This document shows positions 7,722 to 26,145 of a DNA stretch of 37,914 nucleotides, piece after piece. The notes beneath the pieces are model-generated. The model had not been told where the DNA came from and ran no database searches. It saw only the letters and a program-made list of their open reading frames with translations. This DNA is from Desulfobulbaceae bacterium (lineage in GTDB: Bacteria; Desulfobacterota; Desulfobulbia; Desulfobulbales; Desulfobulbaceae): positions 1-37,914 of the forward strand of contig JAUWLT010000004.1 in assembly GCA_030613515.1 (NCBI GenBank), read 5' to 3'. A program made the position numbers and the translations under genes. How positions within the stretch are numbered: the first letter of the stretch is position 1; the number at the start of each line of letters is the position of its first letter.

Positions 7722-7797
7722 GAGGCCAGTCCCCTGGCCGAAAGAGCTGTGAGTATGATATCTCAGTCTCCAATCGCCCAGGGGACTGGGCTCCTAC
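7718..7797. repeat. REP pair (BIME-like), copy 3
   Basis: GTAGGAGGCCAGTCCCCTGGCCGA ... AATCGCCCAGGGGACTGGGCTCCTAC; the left arm has compensatory changes in the inner hairpin. Confidence 0.85.
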
Positions 7798-8528
7798 TTT
7801 TCTTCTTTCTTTTTCTTTCCCGAAAAAACCCTGCTCGCAATAATTCCAGCTTCATATAATCCAAACAGAGGAAAAGAGAGCAGGACCGTTGCAGTGATAT
7901 CACCTGCAGTGAGCAGGAAAGAGAGAACGACAATGGCTATGTAAAAATATGTGCGTTTGGCTTTGAAATGGCCATGTTTGACAAGCCCGGTTGCCGAGGC
8001 CATGACCATGAGAAAGGGGATCTCAAAGGCAATGGCAAAGGCAAGCACTAACCGTGCGACAAAGGTGAGATACAACCCTAATTTTGGCATGGGTTCCAGA
8101 TTGGTGCCTGCATAACTCATGAAAAATGCCAGGGTCTTGGGCAGAACTATAAAAAATGAAAACAGTGCACCGGCAGCGAATAATCCTGTTGCCCAGAATA
8201 TGATTTTGCGGGCAATGCGTTTCTCATTGTCCAGCAGTCCCGGGGAGACAAACATCCATATCTGGTAGAGCAGGTAGGGGGAACTGACCAGGATCCCGAC
8301 CAGCAGGGCCAGTTTGATATAGGAGATAAAGGCCTCGGTCAGCTTGGTATAGACCAGGGTCTTGAGAGTTGGGTCGGCCAGGAACAAAGGCCTGGTACAG
8401 AGTCCTGCTATCGGGTCAATGAACAGATAGGCCACTACTGTGCAGATTGCAATGACCAGGAAGGAACGGGTCAGCCGCTTCCTCAGTTCCTCGTGGTGGG
8501 GCCGGAAATGTTCAAACGCGGTAATCAT
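7794..8528 (-). CDS. tatC: Sec-independent protein translocase TatC
   Basis: MITAFEHFRPHHEELRKRLTRS..., KLTEAFISYIKLALLVGILVSSPYLLYQIWMFVSPGL. Confidence 0.95.
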   Translation of the reverse strand: MITAFEHFRPHHEELRKRLTRSFLVIAICTVVAYLFIDPIAGLCTRPLFLADPTLKTLVYTKLTEAFISYIKLALLVGILVSSPYLLYQIWMFVSPGLLDNEKRIARKIIFWATGLFAAGALFSFFIVLPKTLAFFMSYAGTNLEPMPKLGLYLTFVARLVLAFAIAFEIPFLMVMASATGLVKHGHFKAKRTYFYIAIVVLSFLLTAGDITATVLLSFPLFGLYEAGIIASRVFSGKKKKEEK

Positions 8529-9037
8529 GCTGCAGGGGAGGTCGGCGTGTCCTTTGTTTTGCCGGCAGCAGGGTCTTCTGTCGATTCGGGACTGCCCGAG
8601 GCCGTTACTTCTACCGCATGATCAGTTGTATCATCAGAGGCTTTTTCCTTTTCCCTCTTCCCTTTTCCCTCTTCCCTTTCCTCTGGTCTTGCCTGGGTAT
8701 CTTTTTCCCAGGGACGTTCTTCAAGGGGCTGTAGATCTATGACATCTTCTTCAATATCCTTGCCATCCGTCACTTCATCTTCAGGGTTCCATATTTTTGC
8801 CTTGTTCTCAAGCAGGTTATCTGTGAGTTGACCGGCTGTTTTGCGTAGATCTTCCTGGACCGAACTGATAACCTTGGTTTCTTCGCTCAGGTTTTCCTTG
8901 ACCTGATTCATGGTCTTTTTCAGCTCACCTATGCCTTTGGCCAATGAGCGGGCCAGTTCAGGCAGTTTATCCGGGCCGACTACGATCAGGGCCACGGCCA
9001 TGATAACTATCATTTCAGGAAGACCAATACCAAACAT
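8525..9037 (-). CDS. tatB: Sec-independent translocase subunit TatB (TatA/B family)
   Basis: MFGIGLPEMIVIMAVALIVVGPDKLPELARSLAKGIGELKK; adjacent to tatC with a 4-bp overlap. Confidence 0.9.
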   Translation of the reverse strand: MFGIGLPEMIVIMAVALIVVGPDKLPELARSLAKGIGELKKTMNQVKENLSEETKVISSVQEDLRKTAGQLTDNLLENKAKIWNPEDEVTDGKDIEEDVIDLQPLEERPWEKDTQARPEEREEGKGKREKEKASDDTTDHAVEVTASGSPESTEDPAAGKTKDTPTSPAA

Positions 9038-9074
9038 GGGATCAAAGTGGTTTTGTGGTGAACAAAAATAGTTT

Positions 9075-9153
9075 GTAGGAGCCCAGTCCCTTGGATGATT
9101 GGTGGACAGAGTTTTGAGGCAACCCTTCATCGCCCAGGGGACTGGGCTCCTAC
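9075..9153. repeat. REP pair (BIME-like), copy 4, left arm degenerate
   Basis: GTAGGAGCCCAGTCCCTTGGATGATT ... ATCGCCCAGGGGACTGGGCTCCTAC. Confidence 0.8.
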
Positions 9154-9478: not shown

Positions 9479-10822
9479 TCACATCTCGATCCCGTACAGC
9501 TTCATTTTCTGCCACAGGTTCTTTCTGCAGATGCCAAGCAGCGAAGCCGCCTTTGTCCGGTTACCCTCGGTGCTGTTCAATGCATTGAGAATGCAGTGTT
9601 TTTCTGTTTCAGCGAGGGCCTCTCCCAGAGGAATTGGTGGTCCCATTGTGTTCTGAGCTTTCTCTCCACGCAAATCTTCCGGCAGGTCGGTAACGGTAAT
9701 GACAGGATTTGGTGCCAGCACCGAGACCCGCTCCATGATGTTTCTCAGCTCCCGGACATTGCCGGGAAAGGGATAGTTCAGCAGGTAGGTCATGGCCTCT
9801 GGAGACAGGGACAAAGCAGTGTCCTTGTTGGTGCTGAACTCCAGCAGGAAATGGTTGGCTAAAAGAGCAATGTCCTCCCTGCGCTCTCTCAGCGGCGGCA
9901 TGGTCAGCGGGATGACCTGCAGCCGATAGAGTAAATCCTGGCGAAAACGACCAGCCTTGACCTCTTTTTTCAGGTCCCGTGCCGTAGAACTGAGAATGCG
10001 TACATCCAGCTTGATGGTTCTGGTGCCTCCTACCCGTTCACACTCATTCTCCTGCAGGACCCGCAATAACTTGGCCTGCAGTCCAAACGGAAGTTCACCA
10101 ATTTCATCCAGGAGCAGGGTGCCGCCATCGGCCATTTCAAAACGGCCGATTTTCTTTGCATGAGCACCGGTGAAGGCACCGCGTTCATGACCGAAGAGTT
10201 CGGACTCTATCAATCCCTCCGGGATAGCAGCACAGTTGATCCGGACATAAGGCTTGTCCGCCCTGTAACTTGCCCGATGAATTCCACTGGCTGCAAGCTC
10301 TTTTCCCGTACCTGATTCACCGGTAATCAGGACGGTTGCGTCTGTCGGGCCTGCCTGGTTGATCAGGTCAATGACCTGTCGGATGCGGCTGCTGTTGCCA
10401 AGTAGTGGAGTGTGCATCCGGCTGCAGCAGTCTTCAAGGGAGGCACAGCGGGCCTTGAACGATTGATTTTCCAGGGTCCGGTTAATGCGGATAACCAGAT
10501 CATCTATGTCAAACGGTTTCAGTATGTAATCAGTGGCTCCTTTTTTCAGGCAGCTTATGGCGTCATCCACGCTGCCATAAGCCGTCATCATGATTACATC
10601 GGTTTCGGAGGCAAGTTTGGTGATGGTCTCAAGGAGTTCTACCCCGCCAAGTTCGGGCATGCGGATATCTGAGATCACGATATGGTAGCTGCTGGCCTTA
10701 ATCTTTTCCAGTGCTTCCCTGCCGTTTACCACCGCATCAACGTTCCAGTTCTGCTGCTCCAGCCTGTCCTGGATAGTGATCCGCATGATTTCATCATCTT
10801 CTGCAAGAAGTATTCGAGCCAT
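9479..10822 (-). CDS. NtrC-family sigma54-dependent response regulator
   Basis: Receiver domain (ILLAEDDEIM, VISDIRMP), AAA+ (GESGTGKELAASGIH, GAFTGA, ELFGHERGAFTGAH), C-terminal Fis-type HTH. Confidence 0.95.
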   Translation of the reverse strand: MARILLAEDDEIMRITIQDRLEQQNWNVDAVVNGREALEKIKASSYHIVISDIRMPELGGVELLETITKLASETDVIMMTAYGSVDDAISCLKKGATDYILKPFDIDDLVIRINRTLENQSFKARCASLEDCCSRMHTPLLGNSSRIRQVIDLINQAGPTDATVLITGESGTGKELAASGIHRASYRADKPYVRINCAAIPEGLIESELFGHERGAFTGAHAKKIGRFEMADGGTLLLDEIGELPFGLQAKLLRVLQENECERVGGTRTIKLDVRILSSTARDLKKEVKAGRFRQDLLYRLQVIPLTMPPLRERREDIALLANHFLLEFSTNKDTALSLSPEAMTYLLNYPFPGNVRELRNIMERVSVLAPNPVITVTDLPEDLRGEKAQNTMGPPIPLGEALAETEKHCILNALNSTEGNRTKAASLLGICRKNLWQKMKLYGIEM

Positions 10823-11150: not shown

Positions 11151-12707
11151 TTAGGCTTTCAAGGGACACTTTTGCTTGGCCGGCAGGGTGATGGTGAAGG
11201 TGGCACCCTGGCCGACCTTGCTGCCGACAATCAAGGTGCCGCCCATTTTTTCTACCTGAGCATAGCTTACAGCGAGACCCAGGCCGGTACCCACCCCTAT
11301 GTCTTTAGTTGTGAAAAAGGGATCAAAAATTTTGTCCAGAATTTCCGGGGGAATACCGGGGCCTGTATCTTCGATCCGGATTTTTATACAGTTATCCCGT
11401 GCACCGGTTCGCACCCGTATGGTTCCGCCCTTGTCACCCAGGGCCTGGATCGCATTAAGGCCGATGTTGACGATGGTCTGCCGTAGTGCTTCCACATCAA
11501 TACAGTAGCATTCGTTGAGATAGAGATCCAGCTGCAGATCGATTTTTTGCATGCGGTAACTCAGGAGCTCAAAACACTCCCGGATGACCTTGTCAACATC
11601 AATTTTTTTCAGGTCCAGGGGGGTGTTGCGGCCAAAGTTCAACAGTTGGTGCATGGAGTGCTCAATCCGGCGCAGTCCCTTGTCTATCAGAGGCAGGTAG
11701 CGCTCAACGAGCTGGGGATTATCCGGTTCCTTTTGCAGGGCCTTAACACAGTTGAGCAGACCGCCAAGGGGATTGTTGACCTCGTGCGCTATACCTGAAG
11801 TCAGGAGGCCAAGGGCAGCCATTTTTTCATTCTGAAAGGCCTGCTTTTTTGTCGTGTCCAGCGTTTCACGGGAGGTGTCGAGACGGTGGCAGAGGTCGTA
11901 GAATGTATCACTGATGCTGTCAATTTCGTCTTTGACGAGTTTGTGTTTTGGGGTGGGGACAGGCTGGTCGGGATAACGGTCCATGGTTGAAGTGAGCTGG
12001 GCCAGGGGACGGGAAACAAGGGTCGAAAAAAGCCAGAACAGCATGGCTGTAACCATCGCGATGGAAAGCAGCCCATAGGTAATGATTGCGCGGTTATTTT
12101 CGTGAATTATGTTGTCAGCCCATTTGATAGGGATAGTAATGCTCAAGCCTCCTCGGATATCACCAAGTGCGTAGCCGTGCTGGGCATGACAATTGAGGCA
12201 TGACTCCTCAATTTCAAGCGGTGCAATATAGCGGAGAATACGGCCTTCCTGACTGTTTTCAACAGAGACAACTTCTTTTTCATCTCCCTTTTCGAGTCGC
12301 AGGAGGCTTGCACGTTCAAATTCGTCCGGAGTATTGGCAGGATTGATCGGCTTGAGGCTGGTGACCCGGAACATGCACCAACCGTCCCGGGCGGCATATT
12401 CGGAGAGCTCTCTGGTGACCATGGCGGGATTACGCTGGACATAGACCTGACCGCTGGCTGAGTGGATCACCGGTGTGTTGAGAAAGGGGTTTGGCCTGGC
12501 CCTGTCACTCTGGAGCACGAAGAGACCGTGATGGTCAGCTACCCATTTGCGGGTCAGCAGTATTTGTTTGTGAAGCATTCGGGCTTGCTGCGTGGCTTGA
12601 GCGTAGATCAGATCATGCTGTTTTTGAGAGGAGTAGATAAAAAGAAAACCGTATGAAAACAACAGGATGGCTCCATTGGCAATAATAAATTTTCCCTGGA
12701 GTTTCAC
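11151..12707 (-). CDS. Sensor histidine kinase with periplasmic DUF3365-like c-heme domain
   Basis: Periplasmic region contains CLNCHAQHG (CxxCH), then TM, HAMP-like linker, [18 protein letters not shown]-box and [19 protein letters not shown]-box. Confidence 0.9.
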
Positions 12708-12744: not shown

Positions 12745-12793
12745 GTTACCTGATGGTAACATAGGCTAACGGAAAATGATACCTTCTGGTAAC
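12745..12793. promoter_or_regulatory. Paired activator dyads upstream of the napD promoter
   Basis: GTTACC-TGAT-GGTAAC (12745-12760) and GATACC-TTCT-GGTAAC (12778-12793), 33 bp start to start. Confidence 0.8.
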
Positions 12794-12843
12794 GATCGAT
12801 GTTTTTTTTTTTTTAACATTCTGAAAAGATGACATTTTTTAAC

Positions 12844-12859
12844 TGGAATAGTTATTGCT
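12844..12859 (+). promoter_or_regulatory. Sigma54 -24/-12 promoter
   Basis: TGG-AATA-GTTA-TTGCT, consensus spacing, 50 bp after the second dyad. Confidence 0.7.
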
Positions 12860-13158
12860 TGTTCGATCATATGTTGATGTTTTCCGACATGGGTCAGGCT
12901 GACACAGGCTGACAGAGTTTTCTCTGATCAAAGCATGGAATCAGTTACTGCCTGACAGGCAGCGCACAGGAGTACTGGTTGTTGCCGGAGTCCCATGTAT
13001 TTGTGTCAAAAGAACTGCTGCCCGGGTACTGCTGATTTTTTTCCTGTTGAACCATACCTCCTTCTTGTTGCAAACTCTTTCAGGTAACGGGTTGGCTGGT
13101 ATCCGGGCGGTGGTATTATCGTCTTTCTTCTTCACTCACTCTCCATCCGGAAGATAAT

Positions 13159-13416
13159 ATGACCATTGGCGGTGTCGTGATAACAGTTCGTCCTGATGAT
13201 CGAAGAGATGTTGAAATCGCCCTTGCCCGGTTTTCAGAATTATCAGTCTACGGGAGTGACGAACAGGGGAATATTATCGCTGTGATAAAGAGTGAGGATT
13301 CGGGATCGATTGAAAAGGTAATCAGAACAATCGAAGAAATAGAAACTGTGGATAAGGTTAACCTGGCCTATCTCAATATTGAAAATGCGCCGGATACTTC
13401 TGCCGGTACGGCGTGA
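13159..13416 (+). CDS. NapD-like chaperone (copy 1)
   Basis: MTIGGVVITVRPDDRRDVEIALARFSELSVYG...GSIEKVIRTIEEIETVDKVNLAYLNIE; NapD size and ferredoxin-like pattern. Confidence 0.75.
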   Translation: MTIGGVVITVRPDDRRDVEIALARFSELSVYGSDEQGNIIAVIKSEDSGSIEKVIRTIEEIETVDKVNLAYLNIENAPDTSAGTA

Positions 13417-13503
13417 GCAACGATAGCTATTGTCTGGACATAAGAGTTCACCGGGGTGCCTGTGACCTCCTACGTCCGAACAGGGTTGTTGCAATGAAAA
13501 AAT

Positions 13504-13552
13504 GTTACCGCGCGGTAACGATGTATTGGCAGAGATGGTACCGTTTGGTAAC
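13504..13552. promoter_or_regulatory. Paired activator dyads upstream of the cytochrome/napA operon
   Basis: GTTACC-GCGC-GGTAAC (13504-13519) and GGTACC-GTTT-GGTAAC (13537-13552), 33 bp apart. Confidence 0.8.
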
Positions 13553-13602
13553 GCATGGCCGATATTTTTTGCTAACCAAAGAGTATCAAAGGAAAAAAAT
13601 AT

Positions 13603-13618
13603 TGGAATGCAAATTGCA
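13603..13618 (+). promoter_or_regulatory. Sigma54 -24/-12 promoter
   Basis: TGG-AATG-CAAA-TTGCA, 50 bp after the second dyad. Confidence 0.8.
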
Positions 13619-13717
13619 TATTTTTATGATGTGGGGAATTGCTGGAGAAAATCAGTTTTTTCCGGTGTCAGGAAGCAGGCTGTCAAAGTGTTCTATTAAT
13701 ATTTAAGAGGGAGTGGA

Positions 13718-14350
13718 ATGAAGATGCCTTGTTTTTTCAGTAATGCTACTGTATTACGGCTACTGGCCGTTACCTCCTTGGTGGTTGGCTTGTGCCTGCC
13801 TGCCATAGCTGCAGAGTCGGCTGATGAAAAGGATAAGCCGGAACTTAAGACCCGGCCCGTTGTCGAGGAGTGTATGCGCTGTCATGATGTCAAGATGTAT
13901 GAGAGAGAATTGAAAAGTTCTCCGCATGCTGTTGACAAAGACAACAAGCCCATCTCCTGTGAACAGTGCCATCAGTTTCACTATAGTCCGCTCACCAGCT
14001 ATTATGCACGCCATGAGTATTATGATAAAAAAATCTTTGAACCCGGCGCGTTTGATCGGCGCAAGCTGCAGACCAATGCCCGTAACGGTATCTCAAATGA
14101 AAAATGCCGGGAATGCCACAAAGATCTGTCTAAAAATGTCAAAAATGAGCCGATTTCCGAAATTGGTCAACTCTGTCATGACGCCTTTCTTGGTAAAAAC
14201 GGCATGACTCGTAAAAATTGTGCGGGCTGTCATGTAAATATGGCCCATTTGCCGGAATTTGATTGGGATTTACAGATAAATGCAGAGTTTGTAAAAAAAC
14301 TTGCTGAAAGTGAAGCGAAAGCTGCCGACATGAAGGGGGAGAAAAAATGA
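13718..14350 (+). CDS. Periplasmic tetraheme c-type cytochrome
   Basis: Signal peptide; CxxCH motifs CMRCH, CEQCH, CRECH, CAGCH. Confidence 0.85.
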   Translation: MKMPCFFSNATVLRLLAVTSLVVGLCLPAIAAESADEKDKPELKTRPVVEECMRCHDVKMYERELKSSPHAVDKDNKPISCEQCHQFHYSPLTSYYARHEYYDKKIFEPGAFDRRKLQTNARNGISNEKCRECHKDLSKNVKNEPISEIGQLCHDAFLGKNGMTRKNCAGCHVNMAHLPEFDWDLQINAEFVKKLAESEAKAADMKGEKK

Positions 14351-14787
14351 AAAAATCAATTTCCATGAAGCGTTACGGGAAAAGGTTGGCGGCTTGTGCA
14401 GTTTTTGGCCTTTTTCTTGCCCCCTGTTTTCAACCGGCTGTTACAGCCGGCACGTTTCAACATCTGAAGGCGCCTGATTCTGCTGCTGACTGTTATGAGT
14501 GTCATAAAGCGCACACTCCAAGAGTTGCCCAGAACTGGCTGGAATCAAAGCATGGGTTTACTTTGATGAAGTGTTTTGTCTGTCATGGTCAGCCGGATGG
14601 TCAGGGCTCGATTCCCTGGGCTGTGGTACCGGATGTTAAAGCAGTCTGCCGAAAATGTCATGAACCTGCAATGATAAGGATGGAGCAAAAATTCGGTGTG
14701 GACCCGGATTGTTATCAATGCCATCCGTTTCATCAAAATTCATTGCATCATGATGCATATGGCAGGACTGAAAGTAAAACTAAGTGA
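14347..14787 (+). CDS. Periplasmic tetraheme c-type cytochrome
   Basis: Signal peptide; CYECH, CFVCH, CRKCH, CYQCH; overlaps the upstream cytochrome by 4 bp. Confidence 0.85.
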   Translation: MKKSISMKRYGKRLAACAVFGLFLAPCFQPAVTAGTFQHLKAPDSAADCYECHKAHTPRVAQNWLESKHGFTLMKCFVCHGQPDGQGSIPWAVVPDVKAVCRKCHEPAMIRMEQKFGVDPDCYQCHPFHQNSLHHDAYGRTESKTK

Positions 14788-14826
14788 GCAACAAACAGAA
14801 CAATCATAAAAAGGGAGAGAAAGATT

Positions 14827-17085
14827 ATGGAACTAACCAGACGTGAAGTCCTTAAGTATGCCGCTGCATCCTCAGCAATGATGGCAATCGGTGGTCCAAT
14901 GTCATCGGTTATGGCAGCTGATGCGGGAGAACCTGATAAGTGGGTCAAGTCCGTTTGCCGCTTCTGTGGCACCGGCTGTGGTGTTATGGTTGGTGTTAAA
15001 GATGGCAAGGTGGTAACCGTCAAGGGTGACCCGAACAATCATAATGAGGGATTTCTCTGTTTGAAAGGTGCCTTGATGCCGCCGATTGTATACGCCAAGG
15101 AGCGGGTTACCAAACCCTATATTCGCAAGAATGGAGTACTCAAGCCGGCATCCTGGGACGAGGCCATGAGCCTTGTCGTTTCCAAGTTTAAAGGCGCTAT
15201 CAAGGAACACGGACCGACTTCAGTAGCCTATTATGGTTCCGGCCAGGCCCTGACCGAAGAGACCTACCTGGCTTCCAAAATCTGGAAGGCCGGACTGGGC
15301 AGCAACAACGTCGAGGGTAACCCGCGTCTCTGTATGGCTTCTGCGGTTGGCGGTTATGTAACTACCTTTGGTAAGGATGAGCCGTGCGGCAGCTATGATG
15401 ATATTGACGCAGCCACCTGCTTCTTTATTATCGGCTCAAACATGTCCGAATGCCATCCGATTCTTTTTAAACGGGTTGCTAAACGCAAACAGGCTGATCC
15501 CAACGTCAAGATCATTGTTGCTGATCCGCGCAGAACCAATACTGCCCGTATTGCTGACGAGCATCTTTCGTTCAGACCGGGAACTGACTTGGCTATTATG
15601 AATGCGATGGCCTATGTTATCATCCAGGAGGAGTTGGATAATCAGCGCTTTCATTCAAAGTATGTCACTTTTATGACCAGTGACAAGAAGAAGGTTGATT
15701 TCGATGCCTATGTGAAGTTCCTGGAAGACTACACTCCGGAAAAAGCTGCAAAGCTTTCCGGTGTTCCGGCGGATCAAATCATCAGGTGTGCCAAGATGTT
15801 TGCCGAGGCCTCCGGCTCTATGTCTTTCTGGTGTATGGGGCTCAATCAACGCATCCGCGGCGTCTGGGCCAACAACCTGGTATCCAACCTGCATCTGTTA
15901 ACCGGTCAAATCGGCAAAACCGGTGCGACACCATTCTCGCTCACCGGCCAGCCCAATGCCTGTGGCGGTGTTCGTGATACCGGCGGACTCTGTCACCTGC
16001 TGCCTGCCGGACGTCTGATCAAGAAACCTGAACACCGTGCCCATGTGGAAAAACAGTGGGGCCTGAAACCGGGCACTATTGCTCCCAAACCCGGGCTGCA
16101 CACCGTTGCCCTGTGGAACGCCTTTTCCGAGGCCAAGGTCAAGGCAATATTTGTCATTTGCACCAACCCGGCTCATTCTATGCCCAATGTGAATATTTAC
16201 ACCGAGGGCATGAAGCGCGATGACAACTTTATGGTTCTCAGTGAGCCCTTTATGGATGCCGAGACGGTTAAGTACTGCGATGTTCTGCTGCCGCCGGCTT
16301 TCTGGTGTGAGAAGAGAGGGGTATACGGCTGTTCCGAGCGGCGTTACTCCTTGTTGGACCAGTCGGTAGAACCCATGGGCGAGTGCAAACCCGATGTTGA
16401 AATTCTGTTGGATTTTGCCAAACGCATGGGGGTGGATCCCAAAGTAATCCCATTTAAAAACTCCGATGATATCTGGGAAGAATGGCGCATAATGAGCAGC
16501 GAAACTCCGTACAACTTTGCCGGTATTACCAGACCGCGTTTGGAGAAGGAGTCCGGCATTCTGTGGCCCTGTCCGACCGAGGATCACCCGGGCACCAAAA
16601 TTCGCTATGTCCGGGGAGAGGATCCCAATATCCCCAAGGACTACAAGAACAAGTATCATTTCTACGGCAAACCTGACGGCAGGGCTGTAATCTGGTTCCG
16701 TCCATACAAGGGTGCGGCCGAAGAACCGGACAACGATTACCCCATGGTGCTCAACACCGGCCGGGTTATCGACCACTGGCATACCGGTACCATGACCATG
16801 AAGGTACCGGAGTTACGTCGATCCTTCCCAAATGCGTATGTCGAGGTGAACACAGAGGATGCCAAGAAATATGGAATCCAAAACGGTGACGACGTACTGC
16901 TGGAGACCAGGCGCGACAAGATGGTCTTCCAGGCCAAGGTATCTGATGTCTGCCGACCGGGCATGGTCTTTGTCCCCTGGTTTGATGCCAAGCTGATGAT
17001 CAATAAACTGACACTGAACGCCTTTGACAAGGGCTCCAAACAGCCTGAGTACAAGATTTGTGCTGTACGGATCAAGAAGGCTTAA
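14827..17085 (+). CDS. napA: Periplasmic nitrate reductase catalytic subunit
   Basis: Tat-like signal TRREVLKYAA; 4Fe-4S site CRFCGTGCGVMVGV...FLCLKG; NPRLCMASAVGGY putative Mo-Cys ligand; C-terminal molydopterin-binding region (VLNTGRVIDHWHTGTMT). Confidence 0.93.
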   Translation: MELTRREVLKYAAASSAMMAIGGPMSSVMAADAGEPDKWVKSVCRFCGTGCGVMVGVKDGKVVTVKGDPNNHNEGFLCLKGALMPPIVYAKERVTKPYIRKNGVLKPASWDEAMSLVVSKFKGAIKEHGPTSVAYYGSGQALTEETYLASKIWKAGLGSNNVEGNPRLCMASAVGGYVTTFGKDEPCGSYDDIDAATCFFIIGSNMSECHPILFKRVAKRKQADPNVKIIVADPRRTNTARIADEHLSFRPGTDLAIMNAMAYVIIQEELDNQRFHSKYVTFMTSDKKKVDFDAYVKFLEDYTPEKAAKLSGVPADQIIRCAKMFAEASGSMSFWCMGLNQRIRGVWANNLVSNLHLLTGQIGKTGATPFSLTGQPNACGGVRDTGGLCHLLPAGRLIKKPEHRAHVEKQWGLKPGTIAPKPGLHTVALWNAFSEAKVKAIFVICTNPAHSMPNVNIYTEGMKRDDNFMVLSEPFMDAETVKYCDVLLPPAFWCEKRGVYGCSERRYSLLDQSVEPMGECKPDVEILLDFAKRMGVDPKVIPFKNSDDIWEEWRIMSSETPYNFAGITRPRLEKESGILWPCPTEDHPGTKIRYVRGEDPNIPKDYKNKYHFYGKPDGRAVIWFRPYKGAAEEPDNDYPMVLNTGRVIDHWHTGTMTMKVPELRRSFPNAYVEVNTEDAKKYGIQNGDDVLLETRRDKMVFQAKVSDVCRPGMVFVPWFDAKLMINKLTLNAFDKGSKQPEYKICAVRIKKA

Positions 17086-17090
17086 GCGAC

Positions 17091-17399
17091 ATGGCTATAC
17101 TGGGATTTCTGATTCACACCCTGGATGAGGATGTCCGGGAAGTGGAGGCAAAGGTCAAGAAGATGCCGGAGATCACCACCTACGGTGTTCACCAGGATCA
17201 CTTCATCGTGACGGTGGCGGAAGTCCCAGCCGATGATGTTGAAAAAATAATGAACAAGATTAAGGAGTTGGATGGTGTCTTAACCACCTATACCACCTAT
17301 CTGACCATTGAAGATGAAATTGATGAAAACGGCAACCTGCAGACAAATCTCAGCTTGACTGATTTGATGCGCAAGGAACCCAAAGACCCCATCAATTAA
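17091..17399 (+). CDS. napD: NapD-like chaperone (copy 2)
   Basis: MAILGFLIHTLDEDVREVEAKVKKMPEITTYGVHQDHFIVTVAEVPADDVEKIMNKIKELDGVLTTYTTYLTIED immediately after napA. Confidence 0.8.
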   Translation: MAILGFLIHTLDEDVREVEAKVKKMPEITTYGVHQDHFIVTVAEVPADDVEKIMNKIKELDGVLTTYTTYLTIEDEIDENGNLQTNLSLTDLMRKEPKDPIN

Positions 17400-17404
17400 G
17401 CAGA

Positions 17405-17444
17405 TTCCGGTCGTCACCCTTGTTGTGGCGGCCGGATTTTTTTT
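17405..17444 (+). terminator. Rho-independent terminator after napA-napD
   Basis: TCCGGTCGTCAC...GTGGCGGCCGGA followed by TTTTTTTT. Confidence 0.8.
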
Positions 17445-17448
17445 CTTG

Positions 17449-17472
17449 CATTGTGGGCATATGCCCACAATG
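17449..17472. repeat. Perfect 24-bp palindrome
   Basis: CATTGTGGGCATATGCCCACAATG equals its reverse complement. Confidence 0.9.
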
Positions 17473-17530
17473 TGGGACCATGTTCGTGCGTTGCCTGCAT
17501 GGCAGCTGCACGATGTCAGCTGTTTCGATT

Positions 17531-17590
17531 GTAGGTGTAGTCTGTTAGGGACGTTTACGGCAACCTAAACAACTAACAGTCTACACGCCT
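17531..17590. repeat. Inverted pair of degenerate heptamer repeats
   Basis: TGTAGGTGTAGTCTGTTAGG ... CCTAAACAACTAACAGTCTACACGCC. Confidence 0.6.
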
Positions 17591-17615
17591 CCAATTTAAC
17601 GGATCAGAGGATGAG

Positions 17616-18116
17616 ATGTTTGATCTTAAAAAACATTTTCTCCGGCCTCCTGGGGCTCGGAGTGAAAAGGAATTTCTCTCCCGCTGCCTGCAGTGCGGTC
17701 AATGCGCCCAGGTCTGCATTTTTGATTGTATCAAGATGCGGCGGGGTTTTAATTTTTTTCTGGCCGGTACACCGGAGATTAATCCCAAGGATGCCCCCTG
17801 CCATCTCTGCATGCGTTGCTCCGCCATTTGTCCTTCAGACGCTTTGCACGATGTAGCGATCGAAGATGTACGTATGGGCTTTGCAGAGCTTGACCGAAAA
17901 AAGTGCTATACTTGGAGAGAGTACCTGCTTTGCCGCAGCTGTTATGAGCGTTGCCCTATCAAATGGCGGGCTATGCGGTTAGAGAGAGGTGAGTATCCGG
18001 TGATTACCGATGAGTGTGCCGGTTGTGGGCTCTGTGAACATGTTTGTCCTGCCGATGCTATTGTGATTACGCCCACCAGGTTCCAGAGCAGCAGGGTTGA
18101 TGAGGGAGGCGCGTAA
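17616..18116 (+). CDS. napG: NapG-like (MauM/NapG) ferredoxin-type protein
   Basis: Multiple 4Fe-4S motifs: CLQCGQCAQVC, CHLCMRCSAICP, CRSCYERCP, CAGCGLCEHVCP; followed by a NapH-like gene. Confidence 0.75.
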   Translation: MFDLKKHFLRPPGARSEKEFLSRCLQCGQCAQVCIFDCIKMRRGFNFFLAGTPEINPKDAPCHLCMRCSAICPSDALHDVAIEDVRMGFAELDRKKCYTWREYLLCRSCYERCPIKWRAMRLERGEYPVITDECAGCGLCEHVCPADAIVITPTRFQSSRVDEGGA

Positions 18117-19768
18117 TGAAAAAACTGACACTGAAAACCTATCGCCGCACCTTCCAGATCTTTGTCGCAATATCCTTTATCATTATCCCCATTCTTAACC
18201 GTACTGATTACAGCTATGTGTATGGCAACTATTTCTCATTTCATCTGTTTGGTATAACGTTTGCCGATCCGTTGGCTGTATTGCAGTTGACTGTAAAAAA
18301 TTTCTACCTCACTGTAGATAATGCAATCGGTACCTTGCTGCCGCTGTTGCTTGCTTTCGCTCTTGGAACGGTCTTCTGTTCCTGGATCTGTGCGTACGGT
18401 CTTTTGTCGGAATGGACCCAGCAACTGAGCAGAAAAATTATGGGTCGTGGCCGTAAGGGATTACCACTCGACATGAATGGATTTCCTTTTAAAATGGCCA
18501 TCTTTACTCTTGGTTTCATCGGCTTTTTCATCTTCTCGACCACTCCGATACTGAATCAACTTTCAATGCCCGCCTGGTACACCAGGTTTTTTCAGTATTA
18601 CTTTGGTCAGGACATTATATCGCTCTGTTTTCTTTTCATTTTGGCAGTGCTGGCTTTAGAATTTTTTGCCGGCAAACGTCTCTGGTGCCGCTATGTCTGT
18701 CCCCAGTCGATTTTGATCACCTTAACTAAACAGTTCAACCGTAAGCGTATGAAGGTGGTTTTTGACCGGGAAAAATGTATCTGTAAACCAGGGCGTGAAC
18801 GGTGTGAATCTGCCTGTACTCTAAGTTTAAAGCCCAAAACACTTTATGATAGGGCTGAACTGGAATGCAGTAACTGTGGTGACTGTGTTGTGGCCTGCAA
18901 AAAAATGGGCAAGGCACTGTCCTTTGAATGGTTGCAGGGCAGAGAGTTTCTGGAGAGGACGGATTTTAAGGAAAGTATCCCTGAGCTGAAAAAAATTGGT
19001 ATTGGTCTTGCTGGGTTATCCGTGCTTATGGTCGTGAGTTATTATGTAGTTCCGGTAGTACGGAATGTAGAGTTTGCCGGAGAAAAATCGATGACCGAGA
19101 ACGCGCTGCTCAGCAATAAAAAAATCGCCTGGAATGACTCCAGGGGGGCCCAGTATTATGAACTGCTGAAGAATGGTACTCTGATCTGTGTGGGTGGTGA
19201 CTGGCCGGTGGAAGGTTTCAAGGGATGGCGGTGGGAATCCGTTGATGAAAATGGTTCCTTTAAAATTGTCAAAGAGGCTTCCCAACCAGGAATCTATACC
19301 ATTGCAAGAATGAGCAGTAAGATGGGCAGTGGTGGCCGCTTTATCATGGAACAGTATGTCGATGGTTCCATGGTTGAGGGAGAAGCTGAGGAATATCGCA
19401 TTGAAACCTATGATATTCTTGTATCAAGTCATGAAGAAATTGCTACGGTTATGGATGCTCGAGCAATCCTGAACCGGTATGCCGACGAAACCTATATTTT
19501 TGATCTCTCTGTCTTTGATCCCGGGGGTAAAAAGATCAAGAAAATTTTGACCGAGGGCGATCTGATTACCATCGAAGGCATGTTGACAGCCGTTCATCGC
19601 TGGATCAACAGTCCGGTTATCACTGCCTCAAGAGGCAAACCACCCAAGTTGCCGATTCATACCAGTATGGAGATACGTTTCCGCGACGGCCGGGTGAAAG
19701 TGATCAGTTTCGTTACTAACTCTACCAGGGACCGGAGTTCAGAGGTATTTGAGGATCTGTGGTTTTAA
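18116..19768 (+). CDS. napH: NapH-like membrane polyferredoxin with unusual ~220-aa C-terminal extension
   Basis: TM region with CSWICAYGLLSEW and WCRYVCPQSI, ferredoxin motifs CSNCGDCVVAC, then an extra TM (GIGLAGLSVLMVVSYYVVPVV) and a soluble domain. Confidence 0.75.
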   Translation: MKKLTLKTYRRTFQIFVAISFIIIPILNRTDYSYVYGNYFSFHLFGITFADPLAVLQLTVKNFYLTVDNAIGTLLPLLLAFALGTVFCSWICAYGLLSEWTQQLSRKIMGRGRKGLPLDMNGFPFKMAIFTLGFIGFFIFSTTPILNQLSMPAWYTRFFQYYFGQDIISLCFLFILAVLALEFFAGKRLWCRYVCPQSILITLTKQFNRKRMKVVFDREKCICKPGRERCESACTLSLKPKTLYDRAELECSNCGDCVVACKKMGKALSFEWLQGREFLERTDFKESIPELKKIGIGLAGLSVLMVVSYYVVPVVRNVEFAGEKSMTENALLSNKKIAWNDSRGAQYYELLKNGTLICVGGDWPVEGFKGWRWESVDENGSFKIVKEASQPGIYTIARMSSKMGSGGRFIMEQYVDGSMVEGEAEEYRIETYDILVSSHEEIATVMDARAILNRYADETYIFDLSVFDPGGKKIKKILTEGDLITIEGMLTAVHRWINSPVITASRGKPPKLPIHTSMEIRFRDGRVKVISFVTNSTRDRSSEVFEDLWF

Positions 19769-19810
19769 TAATATCGGTGGGCACTTTTATTTTGCAACAA
19801 CGTTATATGT

Positions 19811-19832
19811 GTAGGGTGGGCTGTGCCCACCG
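19811..19832. repeat. GTAG-type REP hairpin, second family
   Basis: GTAG-GGTGGGC-TGT-GCCCACC-G. Confidence 0.65.
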
Positions 19833-19848
19833 TTGTAGGGGAGAAACA

Positions 19849-20334
19849 ATGAAAACAATTCTTCGTCTAATTACCGTGTTTTTTGGTATTGTTATCTTTA
19901 CTTCGATATCTTCTGCTGCAGACATTGATAATGCGGCAAAGAATGGTGACCGTTTTATAATCGACGAGACGACGGTCACTGATACCGGGACCGGGTTAAT
20001 GTGGGCTGCTGGCGATAACGGTACCGACATCAGTCTGGTTGATGCACAAGCGTATTGTGAAAACTATACCGGTGGCGGATATGACGACTGGCGGCTGCCC
20101 ACCCAGGACGAATTGGCCACCCTCTTTGAGCTGGAAGCCTATAAAGGCAGCGGCTATTCCATAGTCGCTAACATAAAACTAACCGGGTGTTGTCCCTGGG
20201 CCTCGGATCGAAAGGACGCAAGGGTTGCCAGTTTTGATTTCGAATACGGCAATCCGGACTGGGGACATCCCATGTCAACCATCAATGCCAGGGCGCTGCC
20301 GGTCCGTGCTGCCGCAGGGCTGAAAACCAGGTGA
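19849..20334 (+). CDS. Exported DUF1566 (Lcl C-terminal-like) protein
   Basis: Signal peptide; VTDTGTGLMWAAGDNGTDISLVDAQAYCENYTGGGYDDWRLPTQDELATLF. Confidence 0.8.
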   Translation: MKTILRLITVFFGIVIFTSISSAADIDNAAKNGDRFIIDETTVTDTGTGLMWAAGDNGTDISLVDAQAYCENYTGGGYDDWRLPTQDELATLFELEAYKGSGYSIVANIKLTGCCPWASDRKDARVASFDFEYGNPDWGHPMSTINARALPVRAAAGLKTR

Positions 20335-20338
20335 TGGG

Positions 20339-20683
20339 TTAACGCTGGTTATCCTCTTTTCCAACCGGTTTTTTTCGCAGTCCGTCAATGGCGTGTCTGA
20401 TTCCCATGATCGGATTCGTTAAAAGCATCCTTGGACCTATTTCACGCATTATTTTTCGAATTGACTCCCGTTTGTCCGGCCTGTAGCAGTGGACCGGACA
20501 TTTTCCGCAGGTAGTTTTTCCATTCTGAAAGGGGCAGTTGTCCAACCGTTTACGGGCATAGGCAAGCAGTTTGTTGCATTCCGGGCATAATTCATGATTG
20601 TGATGGTGATTGAGACGGCAGTAGTGGCGGATCATCACCTCGATAGTTTTTTTTTCGCGTTGGATTCGGCTTATATTTTTCAT
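20339..20683 (-). CDS. ygbA: YgbA-like 'nitrous oxide-stimulated promoter' family protein
   Basis: REKKTIEVMIRHYCRLNHHHNHELCPECNKLLAYARKRLDNCPFQNGKTTCGKCPVHCYRPDKRESIRKIMREIGPRMLLTNPIMGIRHAIDGL, with family-typical cysteine spacing. Confidence 0.85.
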   Translation of the reverse strand: MKNISRIQREKKTIEVMIRHYCRLNHHHNHELCPECNKLLAYARKRLDNCPFQNGKTTCGKCPVHCYRPDKRESIRKIMREIGPRMLLTNPIMGIRHAIDGLRKKPVGKEDNQR

Positions 20684-20860
20684 ACGGATTTGTTTTATAG
20701 GTCGTATCTGTGACAATCTTGTAAAATTATATTTTTTTGCTATCCCGTTATTCCTGCGTAGGAGAGATGCGTTGCCTGTGATTGTTTACGAACAATCTGC
20801 CTCTATTTATGCCATAGGTCAAGTCATTCCTCTGGCAGGATGACGGAGGCAGAATAGAGT

Positions 20861-20911
20861 GTTACCAATTGGTGACACTCGAAAATGGCGGGTTCGTTAC
20901 CTGGTGGTAAC
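20861..20911. promoter_or_regulatory. Paired activator dyads upstream of the tetraheme/NrfCD/HAO operon
   Basis: GTTACC-AATT-GGTGAC (20861-20876) and GTTACC-TGGT-GGTAAC (20896-20911), 35 bp apart. Confidence 0.8.
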
Positions 20912-20961
20912 GATGCGGGCGACTGAATGTGTAATTGCTTTAAAATACATCACTTTTTTTT

Positions 20962-20977
20962 TGGAACAGGAATTGCA
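20962..20977 (+). promoter_or_regulatory. Sigma54 -24/-12 promoter
   Basis: TGG-AACA-GGAA-TTGCA, 50 bp after the second dyad. Confidence 0.8.
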
Positions 20978-21033: not shown

Positions 21034-21582
21034 GTGCAACAGGAGTACAAGTCAAAAAGCTACAGCCATGTGTTCAAGATCATTCTAATTTTGATCGCTG
21101 TCTTAGGTCTTGGAGTTGCTGTGCGGGCGATGGTGATGCCGAAGACGTTTGGCGAATTCGGCCACTATAGAGGCAGTGCCATTGAAGATGAGATGAACCG
21201 GCCCATCCGCAACGGAACCAATGCCTCCTGTCTTGTCTGTCACCCTTATATCAGGCAAATGCATTTGGAAGGTGTGCATAATACGGTTTCCTGCGAGTTC
21301 TGTCATGGTCCGATGGCGGATCATGTCAAAGACGGCAAGGTAATTGCCGACCTGCCCATGAAACAGGGCGAGGAAATAAAAAAACTCTGTCTGCGCTGCC
21401 ATAACCAGATCATCAGGGCTCGGCCCAAAGAGTCGATAAAGATGATATCCATGCCCCAGCATCTTGAAGAGAAACATGTTCGAATAGATCATAACTGTAA
21501 TCAATGCCATAATGTCCACGCTCCGCTGATGTGGGTAAATCAGGCCAAGGCCATTGTCGGTGCAGGGGGGGACAGCAAATGA
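21034..21582 (+). CDS. Membrane-anchored tetraheme c-type cytochrome
   Basis: N-terminal TM; CLVCH, CEFCH, CLRCH, CNQCH. Confidence 0.85.
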   Translation: MQQEYKSKSYSHVFKIILILIAVLGLGVAVRAMVMPKTFGEFGHYRGSAIEDEMNRPIRNGTNASCLVCHPYIRQMHLEGVHNTVSCEFCHGPMADHVKDGKVIADLPMKQGEEIKKLCLRCHNQIIRARPKESIKMISMPQHLEEKHVRIDHNCNQCHNVHAPLMWVNQAKAIVGAGGDSK

Positions 21583-22388
21583 TGGACGTTATACAAAAAG
21601 AAATGTCCCGGGATCGAAGGGCATTTATCAAAAACGTGCTGAGCGGAACCATAGCCGGTTCACTGCTGCTGGTAATTCCGGCAGGTGCTATGGATCTGGG
21701 AAATATACCGGAACAGATTACCGGTATGCGTGATGATACGGAACCATTTATTACCAAAAGAAAATTTGCTTTTATCGTTGATATTACCCGTTGCATTGGC
21801 TGCGGTTCCTGTTGTGTGGCCGATAAAAATGAATACCAGGTTCCCGATGGCATGTATCGGACCTGGGTTGAACGGTATGTGATTGATGATGAGGATAATG
21901 TATACGTTGACAGCCCGAATGGAGGGTTGGACGGATACCAGGAGCCGCGCAAGGATATTCCACATCCCGTTCGCGACACCTTTTTTGTGCCTAAGCTCTG
22001 CAATATGTGTGAGCATCCCTCCTGTGTGCAGGTCTGCCCGGTTGGTGCAACCTATCAGACCGATGACGGCTTTGTGTTAATTGATGCCAAGCGTTGCGTT
22101 GCCTGCGGTTACTGCATCCAGGCCTGTCCCTACTCTGTTCGCTTTATCAATCCCAAGACCAAGACCGCTGATAAATGTACCTGGTGTTATCACCGGGTTC
22201 GCAAGGGACTGCTGCCTGTCTGTGTTAATGTCTGTCCGGTACAGGCCAGGAAATTCGGTGACTTGAATGATAAGGAATCCGAAGTGTACAAAATTTTGCA
22301 CCAGCCGCATGTGGTCTCGATCCTGAAACCGGGAATGGGAAATAAACCGTCGCTCCACTATGTGGGCTTACGAAGAGAGGTGGTCTAA
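21579..22388 (+). CDS. NrfC/TtrB-like 4Fe-4S electron transfer subunit with Tat-like signal
   Basis: SRDRRAFIKNVLSG; CIGCGSCCVAD, CNMCEHPSCVQVCPVGA, CVACGYCIQACPY, CTWCYHRV...CVNVCP. Confidence 0.88.
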   Translation: MMDVIQKEMSRDRRAFIKNVLSGTIAGSLLLVIPAGAMDLGNIPEQITGMRDDTEPFITKRKFAFIVDITRCIGCGSCCVADKNEYQVPDGMYRTWVERYVIDDEDNVYVDSPNGGLDGYQEPRKDIPHPVRDTFFVPKLCNMCEHPSCVQVCPVGATYQTDDGFVLIDAKRCVACGYCIQACPYSVRFINPKTKTADKCTWCYHRVRKGLLPVCVNVCPVQARKFGDLNDKESEVYKILHQPHVVSILKPGMGNKPSLHYVGLRREVV

Positions 22389-23590
22389 TGAGTCCTGAAC
22401 ATGGAGTAGCGGCAGCAACCGCCTTGACCAATTTTGTTTTCCCCAACGATCTTCATGTGCACTGGAGCCTGATGATCGTTCTGTATCCCTATATTACCGG
22501 TATTGTGGCCGGCGCATTTATAGTGTCCTCACTCTATCATGTTTTTCATATTGAATCATTGAAGCCGGTGTCCCGCTATGCCCTGATCTTTGCTCTGGCC
22601 TTTGTGGCCTTTGCCACCATGCCGTTGCTCAATCATCTGGGCCATCCTGAGCGGGCAATGAGTATGATGTTTACCCCGAGCGCCTCCTCGGCAATGGCCG
22701 GTTTCGGTTATATCTATTCCGCCTATACCGTGCTCCTTATTCTTGAGATTTTGCTTATCTATCGCCCGACCCTGGTTGCCCTGAAAAAGACTTCGACAGG
22801 CTATATGCAAAAGCTATACGGCGTCCTGACCCTGGGCAGTGACAACGTGTCGGAAAAGTCCCTGGCCCTGGATCATAAAATAATCGCCTTTCTGGCAGCC
22901 ATAGGTATTCCCATGGCCTGTACCCTGCACGGCTATGTCGGTTTCATCTTTGGCGGGGTCAAGGCTAATCCCATGTGGGCTACACCCCTGATGCCGGTTA
23001 TTTTTCTGCTGTCAGCCAGTGTCTCCGGCATTGCCGGTATTATCCTCTCCTATATCCTGATCAAGACCTTTACCCGTAAGGCCCTTGATATGGACTGTGT
23101 CCGGACATTAATCAAGTTCCTCTGGGGCTGCTTTATCCTGGACTTTGTTTTTGAGATGCTTGAGCTTTTCTCCCATTACTATATGGCGACACATCACTGG
23201 CATCAACTGCATGCTCTCTACTTTGGCCCGCTGTACGGAACCTTCTGGGTAGCCCAGGTCGGCATTTTCTCCGTCATTCCTTTTGTAGCGCTTGGCATAC
23301 TCTCCCTGGTGAAACTGCCCGATGGCGTGGTGAAGTTTTTTGGTTCCATTGTCTCATTGATGATCCTTATTCAGGTTCTGCTCATGCGCTGGAATGTTGT
23401 TATCGGCGGCCAGTTGATGTCCAAAAGCGAACGGGGCCATACGGTTTTTCATCCGGAATGGTTTGAGAAGGAGGGTATTCTGGTTTCAATTATTATCATG
23501 ATTCTGCCTATCGTTTTTCTCTTTCTTCTCAGCAAGGTTTTTCCTTTCTGGCTTGATGATGATCCGGCAGCAAATAAGCAGTCTGTCTGA
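22388..23590 (+). CDS. NrfD/PsrC-family integral membrane subunit
   Basis: Polytopic, ~400 aa, directly after the NrfC-like subunit (TAATG overlap); NHLGHPERAMSMM pattern. Confidence 0.85.
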   Translation: MSPEHGVAAATALTNFVFPNDLHVHWSLMIVLYPYITGIVAGAFIVSSLYHVFHIESLKPVSRYALIFALAFVAFATMPLLNHLGHPERAMSMMFTPSASSAMAGFGYIYSAYTVLLILEILLIYRPTLVALKKTSTGYMQKLYGVLTLGSDNVSEKSLALDHKIIAFLAAIGIPMACTLHGYVGFIFGGVKANPMWATPLMPVIFLLSASVSGIAGIILSYILIKTFTRKALDMDCVRTLIKFLWGCFILDFVFEMLELFSHYYMATHHWHQLHALYFGPLYGTFWVAQVGIFSVIPFVALGILSLVKLPDGVVKFFGSIVSLMILIQVLLMRWNVVIGGQLMSKSERGHTVFHPEWFEKEGILVSIIIMILPIVFLFLLSKVFPFWLDDDPAANKQSV

Positions 23591-23767
23591 TGAGTAGGTT
23601 GCTATGAGAAAAAACACATTTTCCCAAGAACAATACAAAATGAAAGGAGGGCATACCACGTTGAATAAAAGGAGGTGACAGTGCAGACAGCGAAAGTTTG
23701 CAGGTAATTCGTAGATCGAATTGCATCTGGTTTAAGGTTAAAGACGTTCATATCAGGAGGAAACTGA

Positions 23768-25363
23768 ATGAAACATTTGAAAAAAACATTTTGTATTGCA
23801 GTCCTTGGGCTTTTTGCTGCCGGTTCGGCCTTTGCCACCACTGAGCAGTCAAAAAATACCCAGGACGAGGCGGCTAAAGCAATAAATGTGAAATGTGTGA
23901 ACTGCCATTTGAAAGAGAACGTTTCCCTGGTGAAACAGTGGCAGCATTCACCCCATGCAGCGGCAAAAGATGGTCAGGTCGGCTGTTATAACTGTCATGC
24001 CGCCAATAAAGGCGATGAACTTGGCTATGAGCATGAAGGTGCATTTATCAAGACCATTCTCTCGCCCATTGATTGTAATTTTTGCCATGAGCGCGAAGTA
24101 AAAGAGATGGTTAACTCGCATCATGCCACTGCCGGTGAAATTATGGCTTCACTGGATAACGTGGTTGGTGAGGTTATCTGCTCCATGGAACCCACCAAGG
24201 CCGATGTTGTCAACGGCTGCTGGCAGTGCCATGGCTCAGTGATTAAGATTAAACGTGGTAAAGACGGCAAGCCGCTTCATAATGAAGCCAAGGCCGTTAT
24301 GATCGATTACATGACCTGGCCCAATACCGGCATTGGCCGGATCAATCCGGATGGTTCCAAGGGTTCCTGTATGGCCTGCCATTCCAAGCATTCCTTCCGT
24401 TCCTCGATTGCCCGTCAGCCTGAGAACTGCGGAAAATGTCATCTTGGCCCGGATCATCCGCAGATGGAGATCTATAACGAGTCTAAGCATGGTATTGCCT
24501 ATAATGCTTCTGTCCGTGAAGGCGGAGCCAACGGCATGAATATCCTAAAGAATGGATCCTGGGTATTAGGTAAAGACTATTATTCAGCTCCTACCTGTTC
24601 TACCTGCCATATGGGTGCTTATGTGAAACTGGACGGTGGAATTGCTCCGAATACCCATAACGTTGGTGATCGTATTTCCTGGACCCTGCGTCCGAAAGTT
24701 TCCGTTAAATTGAATCGTGTAATTTTTAACGACGGCACAGTTGCAGATGTACCTGGTGATATTCCGCCTATGGCCGGACAGGAAGCCAAGTATAAAACCT
24801 ATGTACTGAAAGACGGCAAACTGAAAAAAACCATGGCCACCAAGCAGGTTGCCAAGGTTATCTCTTGGGAAGATCGTCGTAACAACATGAAGGGCGCATG
24901 TAAATCCTGTCATGGTATGCAGCAGGTGGATAACTTCTACACCCAGTTTGATTCTCTTGTTGTTACCTATAATGAGAAGTTTGCCAAGCCGACCAAAATG
25001 CTGTACGGAATGGCAAAGAAGGATGGCCTGATCCATGGTTCTACCTTCCATACCGAACTTGGTTGGATCTGGTGGGAGATCTGGCATCATGAAGGTCGTC
25101 GTGCCCGTCACGGCGCTGCCATGCAGGGGCCGGATTATACCCATTGGCATGGAATGTACGAAGTTGCCAAGCACTTCTATTTTAAGTTTATCCCCGAGCT
25201 GATGCATCTTGCAGAGGCTAAAGGTATGACGGAGAAGTACGAGAAGGTTATCAACGAGTTGCTTGCCAAACCTGAGCATGCCTGGTACAAAGCAGGCTTT
25301 GATACTGGCCAGATGGAAGCTATCAAGGCTGAGGCTGCCGAACGTTACGGAGACAAGAAGTAA
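23768..25363 (+). CDS. Octaheme hydroxylamine oxidoreductase-like cytochrome c (putative nitrite reductase)
   Basis: Signal peptide; eight CxxCH motifs (CVNCH, CYNCH, CNFCH, CWQCH, CMACH, CGKCH, CSTCH, CKSCH); HAO-like C-terminal region HHEGRRARHGAAMQGPDYTHWHGMYEVAKHFY. Confidence 0.88.
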   Translation: MKHLKKTFCIAVLGLFAAGSAFATTEQSKNTQDEAAKAINVKCVNCHLKENVSLVKQWQHSPHAAAKDGQVGCYNCHAANKGDELGYEHEGAFIKTILSPIDCNFCHEREVKEMVNSHHATAGEIMASLDNVVGEVICSMEPTKADVVNGCWQCHGSVIKIKRGKDGKPLHNEAKAVMIDYMTWPNTGIGRINPDGSKGSCMACHSKHSFRSSIARQPENCGKCHLGPDHPQMEIYNESKHGIAYNASVREGGANGMNILKNGSWVLGKDYYSAPTCSTCHMGAYVKLDGGIAPNTHNVGDRISWTLRPKVSVKLNRVIFNDGTVADVPGDIPPMAGQEAKYKTYVLKDGKLKKTMATKQVAKVISWEDRRNNMKGACKSCHGMQQVDNFYTQFDSLVVTYNEKFAKPTKMLYGMAKKDGLIHGSTFHTELGWIWWEIWHHEGRRARHGAAMQGPDYTHWHGMYEVAKHFYFKFIPELMHLAEAKGMTEKYEKVINELLAKPEHAWYKAGFDTGQMEAIKAEAAERYGDKK

Positions 25364-25396
25364 TAGAAACCGTATAATTCGTTTAGAGTAGAATCT

Positions 25397-25438
25397 CCGC
25401 CCCGTTTTCCACTTCAGGAAATCGGGGCGGTTTTTTTT
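25397..25438 (+). terminator. Strong Rho-independent terminator
   Basis: CCGCCCCG ... CGGGGCGG followed by TTTTTTTT. Confidence 0.92.
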
Positions 25439-25455
25439 ATTGAGGATTTGTAGAT

Positions 25456-26145
25456 ATGTACCGAGACAAAAAAAGAAAAACAATGCGGTTGGTAACGTTT
25501 GTTTTTGCTGCTTTGCTGGCAATGACTCTTTCTGTTTATGCTGAGGATAAAAAAGTAGAAACGCTGTTAGATCAAGTTATATCCTTAAAGCTTGGTTTGA
25601 ATGGATATGCTGTTGGTGAAAAACTTTCTGCTGACCAGAAAAAAACAGCTGAAAAGAATCCTGTGCAAGGTGATGCCTACGAGGGAACCTATAAGTTTAA
25701 TGCTGAGGAGCTGATTGTCGTTGTTGATGCAAAAACAGACAGAATTCTGGCCATGTATCAGCAAAAAAAAGATGCTGATAAAGAACAGTTTAAGGCAATG
25801 GTTGCCGGCCTGATGGATCATTTTGATACTCCCACCACCATGGCTCATGGCAAGATGCTGTACTGGGCATTTAATAAACACGGGGCTGTTTCAGAAGATG
25901 TTTTTAATGCCTCAAAAAAGATAAAGGAGACCAGTGATCTTGGGATTATAGCCACTGTTAAATTTAGTTCTGAGCTTGATATAACTCCTGATTTAACTGT
26001 GAAGCAAGAAGGCATGGAAGAAAAAAATGACGGAGTTAAAAAAGAAGGAAAGAAAGAAGAACAAACACCAACCGGAGCAATCTATTTTATTATTACTTCT
26101 GACCTTCTGGTCAAAGAGTTCATGGCCGATCACACTCAAGAATAG
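25456..26145 (+). CDS. Exported hypothetical protein
   Basis: Signal peptide (RLVTFVFAALLAMTLSVYAE); no recognised family; ATG 25456 or 25483. Confidence 0.65.
   Translation: MYRDKKRKTMRLVTFVFAALLAMTLSVYAEDKKVETLLDQVISLKLGLNGYAVGEKLSADQKKTAEKNPVQGDAYEGTYKFNAEELIVVVDAKTDRILAMYQQKKDADKEQFKAMVAGLMDHFDTPTTMAHGKMLYWAFNKHGAVSEDVFNASKKIKETSDLGIIATVKFSSELDITPDLTVKQEGMEEKNDGVKKEGKKEEQTPTGAIYFIITSDLLVKEFMADHTQE

Follow-up and report, generated by a model that had tools for sequence, protein, structure and literature searches.

A putative sigma54-dependent two-component regulon for nitrate/nitrite ammonification in Desulfobulbales, marked by paired GTTACC-N4-GGTAAC dyads

Contig JAUWLT010000004.1 of a Desulfobulbaceae bacterium (class Desulfobulbia, order Desulfobulbales; assembly GCA_030613515.1, 2.67 Mb, 85% complete) was analyzed over positions 1 to 37,914 of the forward strand. 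This stretch of 37,914 nucleotides, referred to here as the window, contains genes for nitrate/nitrite respiration next to those of a two-component system. The latter are encoded on the reverse strand and comprise an NtrC-family response regulator (9479..10822), with a receiver domain (PF00072), a sigma54-interaction AAA+ domain (PF00158) whose GAFTGA loop is seen in the translation and a Fis-type helix-turn-helix (PF02954), and a sensor histidine kinase (11151..12707; PF11845, PF00512 and PF02518) with a periplasmic Tll0287-like domain, also called sCache_heme. Three transcription units follow on the forward strand: a first copy of napD (13159..13416; PF03927), a cytochrome/nap operon (13718..19768) and an NrfCD/octaheme operon (21034..26145), the two operons being annotated with Pfam and NCBIfam. 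The cytochrome/nap operon encodes an NrfH-like tetraheme cytochrome, a NapM-like cytochrome, NapA, a second NapD, a NapG-like and a NapH-like protein, and the closest relatives of its NapA belong to Desulfocapsa and to metagenome-assembled genomes (MAGs) of Desulfobulbaceae. The NrfCD/octaheme operon, whose gene order is kept in genomes of the class, encodes a tetraheme cytochrome, an NrfC-like iron-sulfur protein, an NrfD-like membrane protein, an HAO-type octaheme cytochrome and a protein of 229 amino acids.

Each of the three units is preceded by two dyads of the form GTTACC-N4-GGTAAC, all read in the sequence and given here on the forward strand. For napD these are GTTACCTGATGGTAAC (12745..12760) and GATACCTTCTGGTAAC (12778..12793), within the kinase-napD intergenic region; for the cytochrome/nap operon GTTACCGCGCGGTAAC (13504..13519) and GGTACCGTTTGGTAAC (13537..13552); and for the octaheme operon GTTACCAATTGGTGAC (20861..20876) and GTTACCTGGTGGTAAC (20896..20911). 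Three of the six are perfect and three have one mismatch. All three units have a sigma54 -24/-12 element of the form TGG-N9-TGC, namely TGGAATAGTTATTGCT (12844..12859) for napD, TGGAATGCAAATTGCA (13603..13618) for the cytochrome/napA operon and TGGAACAGGAATTGCA (20962..20977) for the NrfCD/octaheme operon, and the genome encodes the corresponding sigma factor RpoN (PF04552, E = 1.5e-62). A previous sequence-only reading of this DNA had described the six dyads as three pairs with start-to-start distances of 33, 33 and 35 bp, which holds to the base, as does the gap of exactly 50 bp that it reported in all three cases between the end of the second dyad (12793, 13552 and 20911) and the TGG of the sigma54 element (12844, 13603 and 20962). 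Throughout the genome, the dyad-pair pattern matched these three sites only, and the reversed control gave no match; considerable relaxation of the pattern still returned just the same three, and no perfect dyads occur other than the three of the window.

The promoter of napD is located about 316 bp upstream of the gene, vs about 80-106 bp in relatives. The resulting leader, of about 290 nucleotides, is unusually long; no Rfam match was found in it, and the only feature detected was a short perfect tandem direct repeat, two copies of CAGGCTGACA at 12895-12914. Relative to the divergent kinase-regulator operon, the first dyad pair occupies the interval 38-86 bp ahead of the kinase start, and it might additionally, or even mainly, serve this operon. 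In Desulfocapsa-type genomes the upstream region of the kinase gene holds the pair and a third dyad, which suggests autoregulation in these organisms. This third dyad was observed near the kinase start at L013, L102, L104-L106, L110, L111 and L115 (L numbers denote the loci compared), at about 87 bp past the pair and in many cases preceded by a TTCGACA box. In the window, however, no sigma54 element faces the kinase gene, and the first pair and its sigma54 element are directed toward napD, as at L011, L016, L018 and L032, so that autoregulation through the first pair is considered less likely than not.

The conservation of this design was examined in 261 genomes of the class, mostly MAGs and with mechanical gene calls. 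Orthologous operons were chosen by gene and not by motif, the query being the gene that opens the NrfCD/octaheme operon. This search returned 35 orthologous cyt-nrfC-nrfD-octaheme operons from Desulfobulbales genomes, one of which (L096) is cut by a contig end and was left out, and in all of the 34 with enough upstream DNA a dyad pair with a spacing of 32-35 bp is followed, 50-53 bp on, by a -24/-12 element. A lack of conservation of these parts at orthologous loci, which the original reading had named as a refutation, was thus not observed. Scripted matching with the strict form TGG-N9-TGC found the arrangement in 33/35 operons and in 0/10,500 shuffled upstream regions. Over all loci examined, 76 distinct architectures were collected, with none in reversed sequence; ACC-N4-GGT hardly changes among these, and the 3' half has A, G or T as its last base but one.

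The joint conservation of dyads and sigma54 elements at a fixed distance in 34/34 operons also bears on the idea that the dyads are bound by a CRP/FNR-type regulator, either HcpR or an FNR-like protein, the sigma54-like elements being incidental. HcpR does control nrfHA and nar/nap genes in related bacteria; nevertheless, the words reported for it are TGTGA-N6-TCACA and TTGAC-N4-GTCAA in delta-proteobacteria (PMC1274295), and the window dyads match neither. On the basis of the site sequence and the fixed sigma54 distance this candidate was rejected, and it is given hardly any credence here.

The same design recurs at loci selected by NapA: it is present at both the napD and the cytochrome promoters of L016, L018 and L032, and at the napD promoter of L011. 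At L005, L006, L012 and L013 the nap genes directly follow the octaheme operon and have no such promoter. Elsewhere in the class, the dyad-sigma54 module precedes nrfHA (L125, L130, L131, L136 and L138, with NrfA confirmed by PF02335), octaheme cytochromes (L126, L134, L141, L146, L147 and L153) and napA operons of several types (L127, L132, L135 and L141-L143). No dyads were detected at L019, L028, L030 and L040, which are distant nap or hao loci from outside the class.

With regard to the protein that recognizes the dyads, the sequence-only reading had emphasized that the window encodes a single sigma54 activator. This is correct for the window; as evidence it is weak, because the genome yields 21 strong hits and two marginal ones. 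A more informative criterion is the distribution of the system. Among the class genomes, kinase orthologs were identified in 117 and regulator orthologs, single-copy, in 111, the latter delimited by a gap in bit score between orthologs (at least 480) and the next paralogs (at most 451). Exact dyad pairs occur in 54/261 genomes (reversed control, one genome), all of which encode a kinase and/or regulator ortholog. Pairs are therefore present in 54/121 genomes with the system and in 0/140 with neither gene (Fisher p = 2.6e-22, a value that overstates independence since the genomes are related, yet the division holds over many genera and families). A chance origin of the dyad architecture is ruled out by the genome scan, the class-genome scan and the shuffle controls. 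In several genomes the pair is found at targets that are remote from the kinase-regulator genes or located on a different contig, and therefore physical linkage is not the explanation. Nor is the target gene alone: at nrfA loci of the class, the 11 from genomes without the two-component system have no dyad and the two from genomes with it have dyads, although degenerate, indicating that the dyads track the regulator and not the gene downstream. What was observed directly in these genomes is the arrangement of dyads and sigma54 elements, how it is conserved, which genes it precedes, and that it co-occurs with the two-component genes.

Based on this co-occurrence and on the dyad-less nrfA loci, the NtrC-family regulator (9479-10822) is very probably the activator that binds the dyads. 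Its recognition helix, GICRKNLWQKM in the window, is kept throughout the ortholog group as GISRKNLWEKM/L and differs in other regulators. Alternatively, the sites could belong to a different sigma54 activator, for instance a NorR-like protein, with the neighboring two-component system acting elsewhere. About 21 candidates are available in the genome, and tandem dyads ahead of the sigma54 promoters of nitrogen-oxide genes are a feature of NorR as well (PMC1274295). Such an activator would have to account for the strict partition of exact pairs between genomes with and without this kinase/regulator and for the loss of dyads at nrfA loci where the pair of proteins is absent; moreover, the sites reported for NorR are three GT-N7-AC, another word in another number (PMC1274295). 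This alternative is regarded as improbable.

The sensor domain of the kinase is matched by PF11845 with 83.3 bits (cutoff 24.1). A CXXCH motif is located at residues 170-174, and C170, C173 and H174, together with H59, are invariant in 44/44 orthologs. The Tll0287/DUF3365 domain was renamed sCache_heme in a 2026 preprint, in which a member fused to signaling modules is reported to have properties of a nitric oxide (NO) sensor (PMC12889525), and for this reason NO or nitrite may be considered the leading candidates for the signal. The sequence-only reading had mentioned neither this sensor domain nor the comparable, non-orthologous NrfS-NrfR system discussed below. Outside the class, Tll0287-type kinases were observed beside nrfHA or octaheme genes at L177, L179 and L182-L186, in these cases with short response regulators; the one tested, at L179, is OmpR-type. 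It seems that in this phylum a Tll0287-type sensor has been paired repeatedly with nitrite reductases via different regulators.

Altogether, promoter conservation, recurrence at nitrate/nitrite genes, co-occurrence, the dyad-less nrfA loci of genomes without the system, the recognition helix and the presence of rpoN favor the earlier proposal that the regulator acts through the dyads to drive the three units. A model can be put forward in which the heme c sensor kinase (11151-12707) would perceive a periplasmic product of nitrate respiration, most likely NO or nitrite, and phosphorylate the product of the adjoining gene, the NtrC-family regulator. Regulator dimers would then bind both GTTACC-N4-GGTAAC dyads, which are three helical turns apart and therefore would lie on one face of the DNA. 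The dyad-bound regulator would assemble an ATPase ring and remodel sigma54-RNA polymerase at the -24/-12 element 50-53 bp downstream. In this way napD, the cytochrome/napA operon and the NrfCD/octaheme operon would be switched on together, and nitrite production might be matched to nitrite removal. It is considered highly probable that these elements form a regulon for nitrate/nitrite ammonification that depends on sigma54 and a two-component system and is conserved order-wide.

Several points weigh against this interpretation. Sixty-seven genomes with the system have no exact pair, several of these carrying degenerate pairs. At L010 the napD promoter has a sigma54 element and lacks dyads, and in the promoter after it dyads are present but no sigma54 element is recognizable. 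At L211 there is no sigma54 element at the usual distance. Another of the roughly 21 sigma54 activators of the genome could in principle share the sites. Finally, that the regulator binds the dyads, receives a phosphoryl group and activates the promoters is predicted from sequence, and the candidate signal (NO, nitrite or nitrate) is predicted from domain similarity.

Additional features of the gene cluster deserve mention. The gene for the 229-residue protein (25456-26145) has no Pfam match; nearly every orthologous operon carries it after the octaheme cytochrome gene, and in most of L087-L120 it closes the operon. Its product is a conserved partner without assigned function. The two NapD proteins are paralogs, one encoded at 13159-13416 behind its own sigma54 promoter and the other at 17091-17399. 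The genes tatA/tatC are present at 7794-9130 in the window and also at L088, L090, L092-L095, L097, L099, L130 and L131. In many genomes they adjoin the regulator genes or stand divergently next to the octaheme or nrfHA operon, an arrangement hinting that Tat export and nitrate/nitrite respiration travel together.

In a broader context, these results provide a searchable, order-wide signature for the control of nitrate/nitrite respiration in the sulfur-cycling Desulfobulbales, and may aid in assigning octaheme and NrfCD operons of uncultured bacteria to nitrite/NO reduction. The concrete regulon also points to an in vivo role and a candidate signal for a single clade among the NO-binding sCache_heme kinases described recently. 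The results further suggest that lineages retained a common regulatory system despite differing in the nitrite-reducing enzyme placed under it. In its fullest form, this hypothesis states that a single, vertically maintained NO-/nitrite-sensing heme-kinase/NtrC system governs ammonification throughout Desulfobulbales, its rigid two-dyad sigma54 promoter module having been joined to genes for differing nitrite-reducing enzymes (NrfHA or HAO-type octaheme cytochromes) and to several types of nap operon, so that the regulator stays and the enzyme is exchanged, a view that we lean toward with some reserve.

No published description of the GTTACC-N4-GGTAAC motif or of its regulon was found in the open-access library searched, which does not include the primary NrfR paper. 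Among known systems, the most similar is NrfS-NrfR of Desulfovibrio, a two-component system that acts with sigma54 on nrfHA and probably on nap (PMC5701242, PMC12285233). Both systems have a sigma54-dependent response regulator, with a cytochrome c nitrite reductase and probably nap as known or predicted targets, and 16-bp dyad sites of a similar format are reported. A PF11845 (Tll0287-type heme) kinase is encoded beside nitrite reductase genes both in the window and at L187, L189 and L190, which we infer from gene arrangement to be Desulfovibrio and where this kinase and a sigma54 regulator are divergent from nrfHA, that is, the NrfS-NrfR arrangement. It could consequently be argued that the window pair is the Desulfobulbales ortholog of NrfS-NrfR with a drifted site, especially as NrfS-NrfR is described as controlling nrfHA and probably nap (PMC5701242). 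However, the regulators of these three loci match the window regulator with 234-241 bits, less than ordinary paralogs do (289-324 bits in one comparison and up to 451 bits in another), and carry the recognition helix GISRGHWYELMKK instead of GISRKNLWEKMK; their kinases contain receiver and Hpt domains and are thus hybrids, which the window kinase is not; and no GTTACC dyads are present in their nrfHA-kinase intergenic regions. Similarity, helix and sites led to the rejection of orthology, a comparison made with NrfR-like proteins and not with verified NrfR, and this possibility is accordingly held to be unlikely. In addition, sites of the LurR/NrfR type, as quoted in PMC6456213, read GTCC...GAC, in contrast to GTTACC-N4-GGTAAC, and the predicted targets in the window are nap and octaheme NrfCD operons, nrfHA being served in other genera.

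Similarities with other regulators are more limited. NorR is likewise a sigma54 activator with tandem dyads upstream of -24/-12 elements at nitrogen-oxide genes; in contrast to its three GT-N7-AC sites, the system described here has two sites, a receiver-bearing regulator and a separate membrane heme kinase. The sCache_heme (DUF3365/Tll0287) kinases share the PF11845 domain with its invariant CXXCH, and NO binding was reported for another member, fused to signaling modules (PMC12889525); no nitrite-reductase targets were found in that report, whereas here a defined regulon is tied to one kinase clade. As in NarX-NarL and NarQ-NarP of Escherichia coli, nap and nitrite reductase would be under two-component control, but those systems work with sigma70, NarL-type regulators and a nitrate/nitrite-binding sensor (PMC12285233), while in Desulfobulbales the same task would fall to sigma54 and a heme c sensor.

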